Origin: Frankia sp. QA3
GTDB taxonomy: Bacteria > Actinomycetota > Actinomycetes > Frankiales > Frankiaceae
Direction of reading: 5' to 3'
Length of the DNA: 64,000 nt
NCBI RefSeq assembly: GCF_000262465.1
Contig: NZ_CM001489.1
Span: 7,172,540 to 7,236,539 of the forward strand
The notes under the pieces are model-generated. The model saw only the letters and a list, made by a program, of their open reading frames with translations, had not been told where the DNA came from and searched no databases. The position numbers and the translations under genes were made by a program. This document shows, in pieces, positions 41,035-48,745 of this stretch (its first letter is position 1; every line of letters begins with the position of its first letter).

Positions 41035-41952
41035 TCAGCCGGCCTGGCGTTCGGCGCGGTACTGGGCGGCCTGGGTGAGCAGGATGTTCTGCAACCGGCG
41101 CACCGCGGCGGGCAGGTGGCGGGTCCGGCGGCGTTGGATGACGAGGATGACCGTGGCGTCGTCGGTCTCCAGCGGACGGTAGGTGATCAGGCCGGCGCGT
41201 TCCAGCGGGTCGCCCGCGATGCTGTAGTCGGGCAGCACCGTCACGCCCAGGCCCTGGGCGACCATGAGCTTGCCCATCTCCGCGCCGTCGGTCGAGTAGG
41301 ACAGCGCCGGGTTGGCGTCGCGGAACAGCCGGTGCACGTAGCGGTGCATCAGGTAACCCGAGCGCATCGCGATGAACGGCTCGGACAGCAGCTGCGCCGG
41401 GCGGATGCTGGCGTGGCGGGCCAGCGGGCTGTCGGTCCGGCAGCACAGCACGGCGCGGCCGCGGAACAGCTCCGCGGTCTCCAGGTCGGGGGCGACGTCG
41501 TCGCCGTCCATGAGGTTGACCAGCCCGAGATCGAGCCCGCCGTCGAGTAGCAGCCGGTGGATGTCGGCCTGCTGGGTGTTGACGACCTCGACCTGGGTGT
41601 TCGGCTGGGCGGCGCGGAACTCGATCAGGGCGGGGGCGAGCAGCGGCACCGTGGCGGCGTTCACCGTCCCGATCCGGATCATGCGACTGGAGCGGTGCTG
41701 GTCGTCGGCGGCGGCGCGCAGCCGGTCGACCGACTCCAGCACGTCGGTGACGAAGGGCAGCAGCTCCCCGCCGGTCGCGCTGATGGTCGCGCCGGTGCGG
41801 CGGCGGTCGAGCAAGGTCAGCCCGAGCTCGCGTTCCAGGTTGCGGATGGTCTCGCTCAGCGCCGGCTGGGACATGTGCAGCGCGTCGCTCGCGGCCCGCA
41901 TCGAGCCGAGCCGGACGACCGCGGCGAGGCACTCGAGCTGTTCGATCCGCAC
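41035..41952 (-). CDS. LysR-type transcriptional regulator of the organosulfur operon
   Basis: The 305-residue protein has an N-terminal winged HTH (Arg-Ala-Ala-Ser-Asp-Ala-Leu-His-Met-Ser-Gln-Pro-Ala-Leu-Ser as recognition helix) and a periplasmic-binding-type effector domain at about 90-300. LysR proteins such as CysB, Cbl and SsuR control sulfonate-use genes in response to sulfur intermediates. The gene is divergent from the SfnG-like gene across 565 bp, the classic layout for control of that operon. The start is the GTG at 41952, read as Val-Arg-Ile-Glu-Gln-Leu-Glu. Confidence 0.9.
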   Translation of the reverse strand: MRIEQLECLAAVVRLGSMRAASDALHMSQPALSETIRNLERELGLTLLDRRRTGATISATGGELLPFVTDVLESVDRLRAAADDQHRSSRMIRIGTVNAATVPLLAPALIEFRAAQPNTQVEVVNTQQADIHRLLLDGGLDLGLVNLMDGDDVAPDLETAELFRGRAVLCCRTDSPLARHASIRPAQLLSEPFIAMRSGYLMHRYVHRLFRDANPALSYSTDGAEMGKLMVAQGLGVTVLPDYSIAGDPLERAGLITYRPLETDDATVILVIQRRRTRHLPAAVRRLQNILLTQAAQYRAERQAG

Positions 41953-42517
41953 CGCAGCCTTCCCGCCCGGACGGTTCAAGGGCCGCCCTATCGCACCCTC
42001 GCCGAGCCCTGATTGACCGGTCCGGACGGCGCGGGCAGACTGGTCACCATGTCGATGGGCATTATAGGGATCGCCGGGCAGCGCCGGCCGTCCGTCGATG
42101 CGGGCGCTGGTCGTGCCACCGTGGCCCGGCGCGCCTGTCGCCGGGCCGAGCCCTGTCGCCGGTCCGGACGATGTGGGGTCCGCCCCGCCGCCTGACCGAC
42201 GCTCCGGGCAGCCGCGGTCGGGTCAGTACACCGGCCTGGCCTCGACGGCCCCAACTCCCCGGGCCTACTGTTTTCGGTGTAGTTCCAGCATTCCTGCACC
42301 TGCTATTCCCGCATCGTCGCCGTTCCGGCGTGGCCTGCTGCCGATAATGCCGGCGTGGGCGGGATCGCCGCGTTCCGGCGTCACCCTTATTCATACCGCG
42401 GTCTGTTCGTGCTGTCTTCTCGGTGTCGCCGCGTGCCGCCGGTCGCCGCGTTCTCGCGTTGCGCCGCCGAGCCGGTTCCATTACCCGCCCGCACCACTGC
42501 CATGGAGGTACTACCCG
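41953..42517 (+). other. Long regulatory leader between LysR and SfnG genes
   Basis: No protein is firmly supported. A 60-codon frame (42013-42195) ends with three Cys in Arg-rich context. The frame continuous with SfnG (no stop between about 42098 and 42518) includes Val-Cys-Ser-Cys-Cys-Leu-Leu...Ala-Cys at about 42407-42445. The Cys clusters may be remnants of, or part of, cysteine-sensing leader peptides. AT-rich pockets near 42272 (GTTTTCGG) and 42340-42400 may hold promoter or operator elements. Confidence 0.4.
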
Positions 42518-43651
42518 ATGTCAGATGAGGTCGACGTCGGTCGCGAGCCGATCAAGTTCGCCTACTGGGTGCCGAACGTCAGCGGCGGCCTGGTGGTCAG
42601 CAGGATCGAGCAGCGCACCGACTGGAGCTACGACTACAACCGGCGCCTCGCCGTGCTCGCGGAGAACAACGGCTTCGACTACGCGCTCAGCCAGGTCCGC
42701 TACACCGCCTCCTACGGCGCCGCCTACCAGCACGAGTCGACCGGCTTCAGCCTGGCACTGCTGCTGGCCACCGAGCGGCTGAAGGTGATCGCCGCGATTC
42801 ACCCGGGGCTGTGGCATCCGGGCGTGCTGGCCAAGTTCATCGCCACCGCCGATCAGATCACCGGCGGCCGGGCCGCCGTCAACGTCGTCAGCGGCTGGTT
42901 CAAGGACGAGTTCACCAAGCTCGGCGAGCCCTGGCTGGAACACGACGAGCGGTACCGGCGCAGCGAGGAGTTCATCCGCTACCTGCGCGAGATCTGGACC
43001 GACGACCACGCCGAGTTCCGCGGCGACTTCTACCGGCTGCACGACTTCGACCTCAAGCCCAAGCCGGTGACGGCCCTCGACCGGCCGCATCCGGAGATCT
43101 TCCAGGGCGGCAACTCGACGGCCGCGCGGGCGATGGCGGGCCGGGTGTCGGACTGGTATTTCAGCAACGGCCGCGACCTCGACGGCGTCAGCGAGCAGAT
43201 CGCCGAGGTCAACGCCGAGGCGGCCCGCCAGGGCCGCCGCGTCCGATTCGGCCTCAACGGTTTCCTCATCGCCCGCGACACCGAGGCCGAGGCCCGCGAG
43301 GTGCTCCGCGAGATCATCGCCAAGGCGGACCGGGAGGCCGTCGAGGGCTTCGGCTCCGCGGTCAGGCAGGCGGGCCGGTCGACCTCGGACGGCAAGGGCA
43401 TGTGGCAGGACTCGGAGTTCGCCGACCTGGTCCAGTACAACGACGGCTTCCGTACCGGCCTCGTCGGCACGCCCGAGCAGATCGCCGAGCGCATCGTCGC
43501 CTACCGCCGCCGCGGCGTCGACCTGATCCTGCTCGGCTTCCTGCACTACCTGGAGGACGTCGAGTACTTCGGCCGCCGGATCCTGCCGCTCGTGCGGGAA
43601 CTGGAGGCCGACGCCGCCGAGCGCGGCGAGCTGGTCCGGGGAGTCTCCTGA
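42518..43651 (+). CDS. sfnG: FMNH2-dependent sulfone monooxygenase (SfnG-like, bacterial luciferase fold)
   Basis: The 377-residue protein is an LLM-type flavin monooxygenase. It begins Ile-Lys-Phe-Ala-Tyr-Trp-Val-Pro-Asn-Val-Ser-Gly-Gly-Leu-Val, which matches dimethylsulfone monooxygenases. It has Ala-Ala-Ile-His-Pro-Gly-Leu-Trp-His-Pro, Asn-Val-Val-Ser-Gly-Trp-Phe-Lys-Asp-Glu-Phe and Gln-Gly-Gly-Asn-Ser substrate/flavin segments. It should use FMNH2 and O2 to turn dimethylsulfone into methanesulfinate. The ATG at 42518 has TGGAGG upstream. The leader peptide starts 2 bp after its stop. Confidence 0.85.
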   Translation: MSDEVDVGREPIKFAYWVPNVSGGLVVSRIEQRTDWSYDYNRRLAVLAENNGFDYALSQVRYTASYGAAYQHESTGFSLALLLATERLKVIAAIHPGLWHPGVLAKFIATADQITGGRAAVNVVSGWFKDEFTKLGEPWLEHDERYRRSEEFIRYLREIWTDDHAEFRGDFYRLHDFDLKPKPVTALDRPHPEIFQGGNSTAARAMAGRVSDWYFSNGRDLDGVSEQIAEVNAEAARQGRRVRFGLNGFLIARDTEAEAREVLREIIAKADREAVEGFGSAVRQAGRSTSDGKGMWQDSEFADLVQYNDGFRTGLVGTPEQIAERIVAYRRRGVDLILLGFLHYLEDVEYFGRRILPLVRELEADAAERGELVRGVS

Positions 43652-43653
43652 TC

Positions 43654-43746
43654 ATGGCTTTCGACAGCCCGCGCGCGGGCCACCGGCGGCTGGTCCGGCG
43701 GCGCCACGTCGACTTCCGCCGCACGGGCAGCGCCCAGTGTCCGTGA
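43654..43746 (+). CDS. Putative cysteine-responsive leader peptide
   Basis: A 30-residue open frame starts with ATG 2 bp after the SfnG stop and reads MAFDSPRAGHRRLVRRRHVD..., followed by Phe-Arg-Arg-Thr-Gly-Ser-Ala-Gln-Cys-Pro and stop. The Arg-Arg-His-Val-Asp core followed after a few residues by Ser-Ala-x-Cys is the hallmark of the short leader peptides found upstream of sulfur and cysteine genes in Streptomyces and relatives. Ribosome pausing at the terminal Cys codon is thought to sense cysteine-tRNA. Here it lies within an operon, directly before an enzyme gene and its hairpin. Confidence 0.78.
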   Translation: MAFDSPRAGHRRLVRRRHVDFRRTGSAQCP

Positions 43747-43765
43747 CCAGCCTCCGCCTCCACGG

Positions 43766-43787
43766 TGCACGCGCCCCACCGCGTGCA
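43766..43787 (+). promoter_or_regulatory. Hairpin between leader peptide and acyl-CoA-dehydrogenase-like gene
   Basis: TGCACGCG-CCCCAC-CGCGTGCA is an 8-bp perfect stem with a 6-base loop, 19 bp after the leader-peptide stop and about 18 bp before the GAGGAG of the next gene. It could occlude the ribosome-binding region or act as an attenuator. No T tract follows, so control would be through translation or Rho. Confidence 0.55.
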
Positions 43788-43816
43788 TGTCCATCTCCCT
43801 CATCGAGGAGCCTCGC

Positions 43817-45115
43817 ATGTCTCTCGACGCCGACCGGCGGCCGTCCCCGTCCGCCGCCGCGACCGCCCAGGAACCCACCGCGACCGTCCCGTCCGCGCCC
43901 GACGCGCCCGCGCCCGACGCGCCCGCCGCCGAGGACAACGCGGCACGCTTCGCCGCGGCGCTGGCCCGTGCCGACCTCGTCGCCGCCGAGCTGCGCACGA
44001 CCGCCGCGGAACGCGACCACGCGAACGCCACCCCGCGCGCCGAGGTCGAGCTGCTGCGCCGCCACGACCTGCTCGCAGTCCAGGAGCCCATCGCCTACGG
44101 TGGCGACGGTCTCGACTACGCCCAGGCCGCCCAGCTCACCCGCCGCCTCGCCCGCGGCGACACCTCCATCGCCCACCTGCTCGGCTACCACTACGCCCAG
44201 ACCCGCATCGCCCCGCTGTTCGGCACGCCCGAGCAGGCCGACGCCCAGTCGCGGCGCAACGGCGCCGAGAAGCTGTTCTGGGGCGGCGTGCAGAACCCGC
44301 GCGGCGGCTCCGACCTCGTGCTGACCCGTGACGGCGACGCCTTCCGCCTCAACGGCCGGCGTTCCTTCGCCTCGGGGGCGAGCCTCGGCGACCAGCTGTC
44401 CGTCACCGCCGCGCTCGACGGCGAGCTGGTGTTCGTCTCGCTGCCCGCCGGGCGCGAGGGCTTCCAGGCCCTGGCGGACTGGGACAACATCGGCCAGCGG
44501 CTCACCGACTCCGGCGGGGTCGTGTTCGACAACGCCCGCATCGAACGCGCCGAACTGCTCGGCGACGACCCGCTCACCGGCCGCATCCCGTCGCCGTACC
44601 AGACGCTGGTCACGCCGCACTGGCAGCTCGCGTTCGTCAACTTCTACATCGGCACCGCCGAGGGCGCGCTGGAGGAGGCGCTGGACTGGACCCGCCTGCA
44701 CGCCGCGCCGTGGGAGACCTCCGGCGTCGAGCGGGCCACCGACGACGCCTACATCCTGCAGACGGTGGGGGAGCTGCGCAGCGAGATCCGCGCCGCCGCG
44801 CTGCTGGCCGACCGGGCGGGTGCGGCGTTGCAGGAAGCCCTGAACGTCGGCCCGGAGCTGACCGCCGACGAGCGGGCCGAGGCGGCGATCGCCGTCTACG
44901 AGGCGAAGTACCTGACGACGAAGGTGTCGCTGGCGGCGGCGAGCCGGCTGTTCGAGATCCAGGGCTCGCGGGCGACGACCAGCGCCTACGGCTTCGACCG
45001 CCACTGGCGCAACCTGCGCACCCACACCGTCCACGACCCGGTGGCCTACAAGGCGCGCGAGGTCGGCGACTGGACGCTCAACCGCCGCGCCCCGGAGTTC
45101 TCGCTCTACCGCTGA
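43817..45115 (+). CDS. Acyl-CoA-dehydrogenase-fold monooxygenase (SfnB/DszC-like), first copy
   Basis: The 432-residue protein has the three-part acyl-CoA dehydrogenase fold (N-terminal helices, middle beta domain with Trp-Gly-Gly-Val-Gln-Asn-Pro-Arg-Gly-Gly, C-terminal helices ending Asp-Arg-His-Trp-Arg-Asn-Leu-Arg-Thr-His-Thr-Val-His-Asp-Pro). The final Arg-Thr-His-Thr-x-His-Asp-Pro segment is typical of the SfnB/DszC/TdsC group, flavin monooxygenases that act on sulfur compounds instead of dehydrogenating CoA thioesters. No catalytic Glu of a true dehydrogenase is evident. The N-terminal 40 residues are a Pro/Ala/Asp low-complexity tail. Its translation is probably governed by the upstream leader peptide. 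Confidence 0.85.
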   Translation: MSLDADRRPSPSAAATAQEPTATVPSAPDAPAPDAPAAEDNAARFAAALARADLVAAELRTTAAERDHANATPRAEVELLRRHDLLAVQEPIAYGGDGLDYAQAAQLTRRLARGDTSIAHLLGYHYAQTRIAPLFGTPEQADAQSRRNGAEKLFWGGVQNPRGGSDLVLTRDGDAFRLNGRRSFASGASLGDQLSVTAALDGELVFVSLPAGREGFQALADWDNIGQRLTDSGGVVFDNARIERAELLGDDPLTGRIPSPYQTLVTPHWQLAFVNFYIGTAEGALEEALDWTRLHAAPWETSGVERATDDAYILQTVGELRSEIRAAALLADRAGAALQEALNVGPELTADERAEAAIAVYEAKYLTTKVSLAAASRLFEIQGSRATTSAYGFDRHWRNLRTHTVHDPVAYKAREVGDWTLNRRAPEFSLYR

Positions 45116-45263
45116 CCCCACGGCCGGCGGCCCGCCGACAGGGGGCCTGACGGCCGGACGTCGGAAAGCCGGCGTCGACGAACCCCGCAGGGGACGGCGA
45201 TGATGGCGGGCGCCGCGACGTGGTGCCCGCCATCATCTGCCCCTCGACCACAGGAGTGCCGCC

Positions 45264-46517
45264 GTGTCCGATCGCCCGTTCGCCGCCGCAGTCGTCCCGA
45301 CCGTCGTCGACCGTCCGGTCGCGGTGCTGCGTTCGGACGCCGAGGCGATCGAGGCCGCGGGCTCGCTCGCGGTGCGGTTCGCGGCGGGCGCCGGCGGCCG
45401 GGACGCCGAACGGCGGCTGCCCACCGTCGAGGTCGAGGAACTGTCCGCCTCGGGGCTGCTCGGCAGCACCGTGCCGGCGCGCTTCGGCGGGGCGGACGTG
45501 TCGGTGGCGACGCTGACCGAGGTGTTCCGGCTGCTCGCCACCGCCGACGCGAGCCTCGCCCAGATCCCGCACAGCCACTTCGTCTTCCTCGACGCCCTGC
45601 GCCGCCAGGGCGACGCCGACCAGCAGGGCTTCTACTTCGCCCAGGCGCTCGCCGGGCGGCGCTTCGCCAACGCGCAGAGCGAACGCGGCGGGCGGACCAT
45701 CGCCGACGACGCCACCACGCTGCGCCGCCGCCCCGACGGCGGCTACCTGCTCACCGGGGAGAAGTTCTACTGCACCGGCGCGCTGTTCGCCCACTGGCTG
45801 GTCGTGCGCGCCGTCCTCGCCGACACCCCGGCGCGCCCCGACGGCTCGCCGGTCAAGGCGCTGGCCTACATCGCCCGGGACACCCCCGGCGTGCGGGTCG
45901 CCGACGACTGGGACGGCATGGGCCAGCGCACCACGGCCAGCGGCACCGTCCGCCTCGACGAGGTGGCGGTCGAGGCGAACCAGGTCGTGCCCTTCTCGCC
46001 GATCTTCGACGGCCCGACGACGTACGGCGCCCGCGCGCAGGTCCTGCACGCCGCGCTGGACACCGGCATCGCCCGCGGCGCCCTCGACGACGCCGCCGCC
46101 CAGGTCGCGAAGGCCCGGCCGTGGTTCGAAAGCGGCGCTGCGCGGGCCGCCGACGATCCGCTGCTCGTCCAGCAGGCCGGCGAGCTGGAGATCGAGGTCC
46201 GGGCGGCGGAGGCGCTGCTGCGCGAGGCGGCGGCGGCTGTCGACGCCGCCGAGCTCGACCCGACCGACGACGCCACCGCGCGGGCGTCCGTCGCCACCGC
46301 CGTGGCCAAGGTCGCCGGCGCGCGGGCCGCGGTGCGTGCCGCGTCCGAGCTGTTCGAGCTCGGCGGCACCCGCTCGGCCGCCGGCACGCTGAACCTCGCC
46401 CGCCACTGGCGCGACGGCCGCACCCACACACTGCACGACCCGAGCCGCTGGAAGGTCCAGCACATCGGCCGCTGGCTGCTGTCCGGCACCCCGCCGCCCC
46501 GCCACGGCCAGCTCTGA
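45264..46517 (+). CDS. Acyl-CoA-dehydrogenase-fold monooxygenase (SfnB-like), second copy
   Basis: The 417-residue protein has the same fold as the preceding one and is a diverged paralogue: Ile-Pro-His-Ser-His-Phe-Val-Phe-Leu-Asp, Gly-Glu-Lys-Phe-Tyr-Cys-Thr-Gly-Ala-Leu-Phe and a C-terminal Arg-Asp-Gly-Arg-Thr-His-Thr-Leu-His-Asp-Pro. This one is closer to SfnB itself. The GTG at 45264 follows AGGAG. A 148 bp gap with its own AT-poor sequence separates it from the first copy. Together they suggest oxidation of two related sulfur substrates or two successive steps. Confidence 0.87.
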   Translation: MSDRPFAAAVVPTVVDRPVAVLRSDAEAIEAAGSLAVRFAAGAGGRDAERRLPTVEVEELSASGLLGSTVPARFGGADVSVATLTEVFRLLATADASLAQIPHSHFVFLDALRRQGDADQQGFYFAQALAGRRFANAQSERGGRTIADDATTLRRRPDGGYLLTGEKFYCTGALFAHWLVVRAVLADTPARPDGSPVKALAYIARDTPGVRVADDWDGMGQRTTASGTVRLDEVAVEANQVVPFSPIFDGPTTYGARAQVLHAALDTGIARGALDDAAAQVAKARPWFESGAARAADDPLLVQQAGELEIEVRAAEALLREAAAAVDAAELDPTDDATARASVATAVAKVAGARAAVRAASELFELGGTRSAAGTLNLARHWRDGRTHTLHDPSRWKVQHIGRWLLSGTPPPRHGQL

Positions 46518-46662
46518 ACTCCCCGCCCGGCCCGGACCCGCCGGCTCCCCCGACTCCCCCCGACCCGACGGCCCCATCGGATCACCGGTCCGATCCGACC
46601 ATCGGCCCGCGAGACCACCGGCCCCGGGGGACCAGCGGTCGCGATCCCTGGAGGTATCCCGC

Positions 46663-47835
46663 ATGACGCTGCGGCTGCACTGGTTCCTGCCCACCTACGG
46701 CGACTCGCGCTTCATCGTCGGCGGCGGCCACGGCCTGCCCGCGGGGGTCGCGGCCGGCGACCGGCGGTCCACCATCGGCTACCTGTCGTCGATCGCCCGC
46801 GCCGCCGAGGAGTTCGGCTTCGCCGGCGCGCTCACCCCGACCGGGGCGTGGTGTCAGGACGCCTGGCTGACGACGGCGATGCTGGCCCGCGAGTCCGAGC
46901 GGCTGGCGTTCCTCGTCGCGTTCCGGCCAGGCCTGATCAGCCCGACGCTCGCCGCGCAGATGGCCGCCACGTTCAGCGCGCACGCCCCCGGCCGACTGCT
47001 GCTCAACGTCGTCACCGGCGGGGAGGCGCACGAGCAGCGTGCCTACGGCGACCATCTGGACAAGGACGCCCGCTACGCCCGCTGCGACGAGTTCCTCTCC
47101 GTCGTGCGCCGGCTGTGGGCGGGGGAGAGCGTGACCCACCGCGGCACCCACCTCGACGTCGAGGCCGCCCGGCTGCCCACCCTGCCCGACCCCGTCCCGT
47201 CGCTGTACTTCGGCGGTTCCTCGTCCGCGGCCGGCCCCGTCGCCGCGACCCACGCGGATGTGTATCTGACCTGGGGCGAGCCGCTGGCCGCCGTCGCCGA
47301 GAAGATCGCCTGGATCCGCGGCCTCGCCGCCGAGCGGGGCCGGACGATCCGGTTCGGCATCCGGCTGCACGTCATCACCCGCGACAGCGCCGAGGACGCC
47401 TGGCGGGAGGCCGGCCGCCTGCTCGACGCCCTCGGTGAGGACGTCGTCACCGCCGCCCAGGCCGGCCTCGCCCGCAGCGAGTCCACCGGCCAGTCCCGGA
47501 TGCTCGCCCTGCACGCCCGCCACCGCGCCGACGGCAGCTGGCGCGACCCGCGCGCCCTGGAGATCGCCCCGAACCTGTGGGCCGGGGTCGGGCTGGTGCG
47601 CGGCGGCGCCGGCACCGCGCTGGTCGGCAGCCACGGCGAGGTGGCCGAGCGGATCGCCGAGTACGCCGCACTCGGCATCGACGAGTTCGTCTTCTCCGGC
47701 TATCCCCACCTGGAGGAGCTGTACTGGTTCGGCGAGGGCGTGCTGCCCCAGCTCGCCCGCGCCGGCCTGCTCCCCGCCGCTCCCGCGACCGCCGCCGACA
47801 CCGGCAACCGCCCCTTCCTTCCCGCCGCCCACTGA
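46663..47835 (+). CDS. FMNH2-dependent alkanesulfonate monooxygenase (SsuD-like)
   Basis: The 390-residue LLM-fold protein begins Leu-Arg-Leu-His-Trp-Phe-Leu-Pro-Thr-Tyr-Gly-Asp, close to SsuD, and has Val-Ala-Phe-Arg-Pro-Gly-Leu-Ile-Ser-Pro-Thr, Asn-Val-Val-Thr-Gly-Gly, Tyr-Phe-Gly-Gly-Ser-Ser and Phe-Ser-Gly-Tyr-Pro-His-Leu-Glu-Glu. SsuD cleaves alkanesulfonates to aldehyde and sulfite. Its presence as the last gene fits conversion of methanesulfonate or similar products made by the upstream enzymes. A GGAGG precedes the ATG at 46663. Confidence 0.87.
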   Translation: MTLRLHWFLPTYGDSRFIVGGGHGLPAGVAAGDRRSTIGYLSSIARAAEEFGFAGALTPTGAWCQDAWLTTAMLARESERLAFLVAFRPGLISPTLAAQMAATFSAHAPGRLLLNVVTGGEAHEQRAYGDHLDKDARYARCDEFLSVVRRLWAGESVTHRGTHLDVEAARLPTLPDPVPSLYFGGSSSAAGPVAATHADVYLTWGEPLAAVAEKIAWIRGLAAERGRTIRFGIRLHVITRDSAEDAWREAGRLLDALGEDVVTAAQAGLARSESTGQSRMLALHARHRADGSWRDPRALEIAPNLWAGVGLVRGGAGTALVGSHGEVAERIAEYAALGIDEFVFSGYPHLEELYWFGEGVLPQLARAGLLPAAPATAADTGNRPFLPAAH

Positions 47836-47861
47836 CCGTCCCGCCGCCGATCAGGGCCCGC

Positions 47862-47932
47862 CCTGCTTATCCGGAGGCTTTTCGTGTCCGATCTATCCCT
47901 CCGGATAACCGGATAAGCAGGGGATAAGCAGG
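47862..47932 (+). terminator. Inverted-repeat cluster at the end of the organosulfur operon
   Basis: CCTGCTTATCCGG (47862-47874) and CCGGATAAGCAGG (47909-47921) are perfect 13-bp inverted repeats with a 34-base spacer. The spacer also holds TATCC/GGATA, and a third GGATAAGCAGG follows at 47922-47932. The site lies between the convergent operon and phosphatase gene, where a bidirectional terminator would be useful. A role as a regulatory or repetitive element is equally possible. Confidence 0.5.
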
Positions 47933-47956
47933 AAGGGGGCCGATCGCGGGCTGTGG

Positions 47957-48745
47957 TCAGAGCGGGCGGCAGGCGTGGGTGAGGGTCCAGCCGGCGGCGG
48001 GATCGTCGGCGGGGGCGTGGCCATCGGCGGGGGCCTGGCCAGCGCCGGGGGCGGGCGGGACGCGGCGGTGCAGCAGGGTGGCGGTCAGGGGGGCGACATC
48101 GATCCGCCAGAACACCTCCGGCGGGCACCGCAGCACGAGGAGCAGCACCGCGCGGACGACCGCCGGATGCGTCACCGCCACGACGGGCCCCGGTCGGCCG
48201 CCCACTCGGGCGAGCCAGCCACCGACGCGGTCGAGCAGGTCCGCGCGCGACTCCCCGCCCGGCGGGGCCATCATCGGGTCCTCATGCCAACGGCGCAGCT
48301 CGCCCAGCGGGATCTCGTCGAGTCCCCGGCCGCGCCAGGCCCCGACATCCAGGTCCCGCAGCGCGGCTTCGACGCCCTCGTCCGCCCCGCCACCGTCCGC
48401 CCCGCCACCGTCCGCGTCGGCGCGCGTGTGCGTGTCGGCGTTGGTGTGCGTGTCCGCGTCGGCGTTGGTGTCGGCGTTGGTGTCGGCGTTGGTGTTGGTG
48501 TCGGCGTTGGTGTTGGCACCGGCGTGGCGGAGGCCCAACGCCCGCGCGGTCTGCCGGGCGCGGGCGGAGCCGTCGGTGAGCACCCGCGCCCGGGCGGGCA
48601 GCGCTCCGGCCGCGGCCGCGGCCCGGCGCAGCCCGTCGGCGTCGACGTCCTCGTCGACGGGGAATCGGGCCTCCCGCAATGCCTGGGTCGGCGCCGCGCT
48701 GACCAGCGCCAGCCGAACGACTCCTGCGGCCGGGGCTGACGACAT
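47957..48745 (-). CDS. Histidine-phosphatase-fold protein lacking the RHG motif
   Basis: The 262-residue protein fits the histidine phosphatase superfamily (Val-Leu-Thr-Asp-Gly-Ser-Ala-Arg-Ala-Arg-Gln-Thr-Ala and Pro-Gly-Gly-Glu-Ser at about residue 158, Ala-Val-Thr-His-Pro-Ala-Val at about 190). The catalytic Arg-His-Gly near the N-terminus is replaced by Val-Ser-Ala-Ala-Pro-Thr. An Asn/Ala/Asp/Thr repeat of hexamer units fills residues 70-110. The second His is present, so partial or altered chemistry is possible. The frame remains open upstream of the ATG at 48745 as far as about 48888. The C-terminal region is a Pro/Ala/Asp linker. Confidence 0.7.
   Translation of the reverse strand: MSSAPAAGVVRLALVSAAPTQALREARFPVDEDVDADGLRRAAAAAGALPARARVLTDGSARARQTARALGLRHAGANTNADTNTNADTNADTNADADTHTNADTHTRADADGGGADGGGADEGVEAALRDLDVGAWRGRGLDEIPLGELRRWHEDPMMAPPGGESRADLLDRVGGWLARVGGRPGPVVAVTHPAVVRAVLLLVLRCPPEVFWRIDVAPLTATLLHRRVPPAPGAGQAPADGHAPADDPAAGWTLTHACRPL
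48415..48530 (+). repeat. Hexanucleotide-type repeat inside the phosphatase-like gene
   Basis: Variants of TCGGCGTTGGTG and shorter units recur across about 115 bp and encode Asn-Ala-Asp-Thr/Thr-Asn-Ala-Asp repeats on the minus strand. Array sizes of this kind often vary between strains. Confidence 0.85.

Follow-up and report, generated by a model that had tools for sequence, protein, structure and literature searches.

The 64-kb stretch of Frankia sp. QA3 DNA analyzed here (64,000 nucleotides, hereafter the window) carries a short open reading frame for a cysteine-type leader peptide between the first and second of four organosulfur genes, with the leader and all four genes on the + strand. 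The first gene, sfnG (42518..43651), encodes a dimethylsulfone monooxygenase (TIGR04021, 626.8 bits against a cut-off of 382.95). Its stop codon (43649-43651) is followed by 2 nt and then by the 30-codon leader frame (43654..43746), and a gap of 70 nt separates the leader from the ATG of gene 2 at 43817. A GGGGAG sequence within the 3′ end of sfnG (43638..43643) may serve as the Shine-Dalgarno sequence of the leader, and GAGGAG (43805..43810) is that of gene 2. Gene 2 (43817..45115), the first behind the leader, encodes a DszC/SfnB-like flavin-dependent monooxygenase (NF043015, 271.6 bits; TIGR04022, 265.7 bits), gene 3 (45264..46517) an SfnB family oxidoreductase (TIGR04022, 495 bits against 430.9), and gene 4 (46663..47835) an SsuD-like alkanesulfonate monooxygenase (NF001939, 434.2 bits against 510). 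The SfnG and SfnB assignments thus pass their curated cut-offs, and the DszC-like and SsuD-like assignments fall below theirs. An earlier reading of the sequence alone (the sequence-only reading) had placed "SfnB-like enzymes" behind the leader; the one that passes the SfnB cut-off is gene 3, and gene 2 scores about equally as DszC and as SfnB and passes neither cut-off.

The leader frame encodes a 30-residue peptide with the core LVRRRHVDFRRTGSAQC (43690-43740), in which the single cysteine, residue 29, is encoded by TGT (43738-43740). Two leader-peptide profiles match it with significant E-values at scores below their curated cut-offs: NF042936, the Ms4527A family Cys-rich leader peptide (23.1 bits, E = 4e-5, cut-off 45), and NF042934, labeled cis_reg_atten and "putative leader peptide" (20.2 bits, E = 3.4e-4, cut-off 27). 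The NF042934 match spans profile positions 2-19 of 19, a full-length core with the cysteine near the C-terminus. Among four homologues typed with the same profile, two pass the cut-off of 27 (28.6 and 27.4; L086 and the L092/L100 type) and two fail (22.8 and 21.9). Pfam yielded no match to the leader peptide. We also scored the peptide with a position matrix built from 18 of 22 candidate leaders of the same genome, excluding the window leader itself, L025 and L028 (whose core ends at the cysteine) and L008 (weaker). The window peptide scores 36.5; in the control, reversed sequence from 20 loci among the 80 named sfnG loci described below, no score exceeds 12.7. The profile E-values and the matrix score together argue that the peptide is not a chance reading frame, and by its sequence the frame belongs to the actinobacterial kind of cysteine leader peptides, as the sequence-only reading had proposed for position 43654.

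The Frankia sp. genome encodes about 20 leaders of this kind, several of them before sulfur genes. A six-frame scan with NF042934 listed 30 matches at E-values up to 10, seven over the cut-off; the window leader ranks 16th of the 30 (18.9 bits, E = 0.0175). The same scan gave matches in 10 of 14 control genomes, none over the cut-off. Twenty-two leader-like peptides of the genome combine an R-x-x-[VI]-D-type core with a cysteine near the end. The next frame was scanned at 17 of these loci and gave a match in 10 and none in 7 at the thresholds used. The matched genes include SsuD-like (L016), NirA/sulfite-reductase-like (L010), NtaA/DmoA-like (L008) and MsnO8-like (L026) genes, nickel/peptide-type substrate-binding proteins (L009, L017, L021), an Xaa-Pro dipeptidase-like protein (L018), a short-chain dehydrogenase (L022) and an Mlc/NagC-like regulator (L028), a sulfur theme that is not exclusive. 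A pattern search of the 64-kb window for further leaders returned the window leader only. A long same-strand frame ends no more than 60 nt before the core in 3 of the 22 cases (the window leader, L014 and L022); the frames before L014 and L022 are candidate genes. In another family, a leader of the same kind (L201, genome G089) starts 37 nt after a 475-codon same-strand frame, possibly a second internal case.

The internal position of the leader, 2 bp after gene 1, is borne out in the window and conserved in Frankia and Actinomadura. The nearest sfnG loci are those of Frankia tisae and F. torreyi (SfnG identity 98 and 97%). Of 80 named sfnG loci, 43 have the leader core upstream of sfnG and 8 have it directly downstream, and the stored flanks of the other 29 contain none. 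A second set of 52 loci, obtained by drawing 393 genomes across the class and sharing three genomes with the named set, has 7 upstream cores, 4 downstream cores and 41 loci without one. No locus in either set carries a leader on both sides of sfnG. Downstream leaders occur in four Frankia loci (the window, F. tisae, F. torreyi and Ca. F. californiensis) and in five Actinomadura loci (L084, L086, L092, L094, L100), and in all nine the leader ATG is positioned 2-16 nt behind the sfnG stop. Streptomyces, Kutzneria, Streptosporangium and Nocardia instead carry the leader 84-363 nt upstream of sfnG, with weak scores for two of these upstream leaders (L146, 19.4; L161, 18.8). Five Gordonia loci (L089, L090, L093, L096, L103) have small ORFs ending in R-C-x-stop about 55-130 nt upstream of sfnG. 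These are possibly a different cysteine leader before the whole operon, in sequence where Cys-bearing short ORFs are common by chance.

The SfnG tree has 81 rows, one for the window and 80 for the named loci, and leaves out the 52 class-draw loci. The nine rows with a downstream leader all belong to a single 14-member clade (support 97/87), and the 43 rows with an upstream leader all belong to another of 47 members (support 95/96), in a tree whose bootstrap was still short of convergence. The clade with the internal leader comprises Frankia, Actinomadura and Spongiactinospora. One of its rows marked as lacking a leader (L097) is not assessable, as its contig ends 46 nt after sfnG. The sequence-only reading had proposed that absence of the peptide from homologous operons would speak against it; the outcome is mixed, with the leader present in 9 of the 13 assessable clade members and absent in 4 (L085, L091, L101, L102). 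Two Frankia loci outside the tree, G007 and G012, retain both the leader and the DszC-like gene, the G012 contig (L050) starting just before the leader. In G007 (L051:4300-6050) sfnG is broken by an apparent IS200/IS605-type insertion of two genes (judged by reading). Searching 297 genomes from the family to which G263 belongs for the DszC-like protein gave no match, a result with no bearing on Actinomadura.

The nine internal leaders share 11 invariant columns. Over all pairs of 11 core sequences, which are not independent, pS is 0.415, pN 0.136 and pN/pS 0.33; synonymous sites vary freely, which indicates that conservation acts on the peptide and not on an RNA fold. These data also bear on the idea that the copy in Frankia sp. 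QA3 is a decaying relic without function. The window leader has one Cys codon, having lost one of the two found in the other internal copies, its profile scores lie below the cut-offs and 4 of 13 assessable clade members lack a leader, all as expected of decay. Against this, Frankia and Actinomadura share the core, most of the changes in it being synonymous, and G007 has kept its leader despite its broken sfnG. We consider a relic improbable.

Leaders of this kind normally stand at transcript starts, and the window leader could likewise be the ordinary start of a second transcript, driven by a promoter in the 3′ part of sfnG. A TANNNT motif at leaderless distance precedes 7 of 21 leaders of the own genome (the window leader counted in), 5 of 43 upstream sfnG leaders and 6 of 1,531 background start codons. 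None of the nine internal leaders (eight named and the window) has such a motif; the window leader lies directly behind sfnG without a leaderless −10 motif. No sigma-70-like promoter was found in 41900-43900 by a scan that is crude for this group. The missing motif and the tight spacing to the sfnG stop argue, if weakly, that coupling to sfnG translation fits better than a leaderless promoter of the leader's own, and we regard a separate promoter as unlikely. Farther upstream, about 450 nt 5′ of sfnG, a 5-bp inverted repeat with one mismatch (ATGTC-GATG-GGCAT, 42049-42070) is followed by TATAGGG. The repeat is perfect in Ca. F. californiensis and the site is kept in all four Frankia loci examined. 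It is a candidate operator and promoter, which would imply a long 5′ untranslated region for sfnG.

The 8-bp perfect stem that the sequence-only reading had placed before the ribosome-binding site of the next gene is present (43766..43787, 6-nt loop) and ends 17 nt before GAGGAG. In a classical attenuator this stem would terminate transcription or block the ribosome-binding site unless a ribosome stalled at the Cys codon prevented it from forming. The stem is perfect in the window, and such a stem appears in just 32 of 5,000 dinucleotide shuffles of the 70-nt gap and in 3.6% of 70-nt stretches of the window; the hairpin is only mildly unusual. A classical attenuator requires a conserved hairpin between leader and gene, and here two or three of the eight pairs are lost in the two nearest relatives: when the gaps of the three Frankia are aligned, 5 of the 8 pairs remain in F. 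tisae and 6 (one G-U) in F. torreyi, and no pair has changed on both sides. No counterpart was seen by eye in the gaps of Ca. F. californiensis, G007 or Actinomadura. There is no T tract and no terminator-like site at the stem, and no Rfam riboswitch or leader family matches 42000-48000 at gathering score. The Shine-Dalgarno sequence of gene 2 lies outside the stem, and its calculated accessibility with and without a stalled ribosome differs by no more than 0.05 at 10 of 10 loci. A consensus fold of the three Frankia gaps (RNAalifold) pairs CC(T/A)C behind the leader stop with the Shine-Dalgarno sequence, but shows no compensatory changes, and three sequences are too few for such a fold. For its lack of conservation we rejected the hairpin as the switch; the regulatory role that had been proposed for it does not survive the comparison with relatives, and the stem is most likely incidental. 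A classical attenuator at this site is accordingly very improbable.

The end of the leader frame is variable as well. The frame ends one residue past the last cysteine in the window, F. tisae, F. torreyi, L086 and L087, nine residues past it in G007 and 12 residues past it in L084, right at the Shine-Dalgarno sequence of the next gene. In L100, L094 and L092 it continues for 59, 87 and 99 codons beyond the core, respectively, and overlaps the next gene out of frame. In G012 (L050:1-200) no stop separates the leader from the DszC-like gene in the same frame, the open frame being 478 aa long, and ribosomes passing the cysteine there could yield an N-extended DszC-like enzyme. As high G+C content keeps frames open by default, these overlaps are no evidence of selection for overlap. 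The variants show, at the level of sequence, that a fixed leader stop is dispensable.

These frame variants also bear on a Rho-dependent mechanism, in which full reading of the leader would expose an untranslated C-rich gap and transcription would stop before gene 2, while a paused ribosome would hinder termination. Rho was proposed for mycobacterial cys leaders by Seliverstov et al. (PMC1262725), and 8 of the 10 leader loci have a gap with a C/G ratio of 2 or more, compared with 3.3% of 50-nt stretches in eight of those loci. Gaps without a leader are equally C-rich, however (9 of 13), and we rejected the argument for a Rho site from composition because leader gaps do not exceed leaderless ones. 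Moreover, in L092, L094, L100 and G012 the leader frame spans the gap and would leave no untranslated stretch under ample cysteine. We regard termination by Rho here as unlikely.

Our preferred reading, which we hold somewhat better than even, is that the peptide is a cysteine-sensing leader at the junction of sfnG and gene 2, coupled to sfnG translation and acting by ribosome pausing rather than through a hairpin. Ribosomes finishing sfnG would restart at the leader start 2 nt further on. When charged Cys-tRNA is scarce, they would pause on the Cys codon with the help of the conserved RRHVDxxR..SA.C peptide, and the pause would raise expression of the DszC-like, SfnB and SsuD-like genes; ample cysteine would lower it. 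We infer cysteine sensing from the resemblance of the peptide to its family, and the direction of the response is carried over by analogy from mycobacterial leaders. The pause may act on gene 2 through the position of the ribosome; since hairpin and stop codon both vary among relatives, we favor such control at the level of translation over a hairpin terminator. Counting against this reading are the calculated accessibility of the Shine-Dalgarno sequence, nearly unchanged by stalling, the single Cys codon, the scores below cut-off, the rank of 16 among 30 and the absence of the leader in 4 of 13 assessable clade members.

Lying 5′ of the leader, sfnG would be free of its control, and from this position it is plausible, as the sequence-only reading suggested, that the genes behind the leader are controlled separately from sfnG. 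A more specific model, which we put forward tentatively and consider doubtful as a whole, is that a leader inside the operon, fed by the ribosomes of gene 1 and needing neither hairpin nor fixed stop, divides the operon in two, with sfnG independent of cysteine and the genes behind it under cysteine control. In this model, as relatives have leaders that enter the next gene, in frame or not, it would be the pausing that carries the signal, and ribosomes failing to pause would pass over the next start site. If such models are correct, the point at which cysteine acts can shift along an operon in evolution, with control of the whole operon in Streptomyces and control from gene 2 onward in Frankia and Actinomadura. 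The natural variants (a stop after the cysteine, a stop at the Shine-Dalgarno sequence, out-of-frame overlap and in-frame run-on) would then be material for learning how actinobacterial leaders act without conserved hairpins.

Cysteine leader peptides were predicted upstream of cys operons of mycobacteria and others, without obvious terminators, in a comparative study of 2005 (PMC1262725). A 2015 mycobacterial study described cysteine-rich upstream ORFs, one with ribosome occupancy (PMC4633059), translation attenuation of M. smegmatis cysteine genes is cited in a paper of 2026 (PMC13236596), and a reannotation of S. lividans lists eight leader peptides, none termed cysteine-dependent (PMC8079986). 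In the portions of these four papers available to us, the leaders are upstream of their assigned operons. Our literature search, with most subscription papers beyond its reach, found no report of a cysteine leader inside an sfnG operon. By sequence comparison, the new point is the internal placement of the leader, kept in Frankia and Actinomadura.

The window leader resembles the NF042934 and NF042936 families in its full-length core match and significant E-values, and differs from them in its sub-cut-off scores (20.2 against 27 and 23.1 against 45), its single cysteine and its place inside an operon. The mycobacterial polycysteine leaderless short ORFs (Canestrari et al. 2020) are reported to be likewise short Cys-ending ORFs before sulfur genes and are cited as a case of translation attenuation; they begin their transcripts and carry several Cys codons in a row, whereas the window leader is intercistronic with one Cys codon. 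The upstream leader of Streptomyces, Kutzneria, Streptosporangium and Nocardia is the same kind of peptide next to genes of the same pathway (L117, the one tested, passes NF042934 with 29.9 bits), but its location before sfnG would place the whole operon under control.
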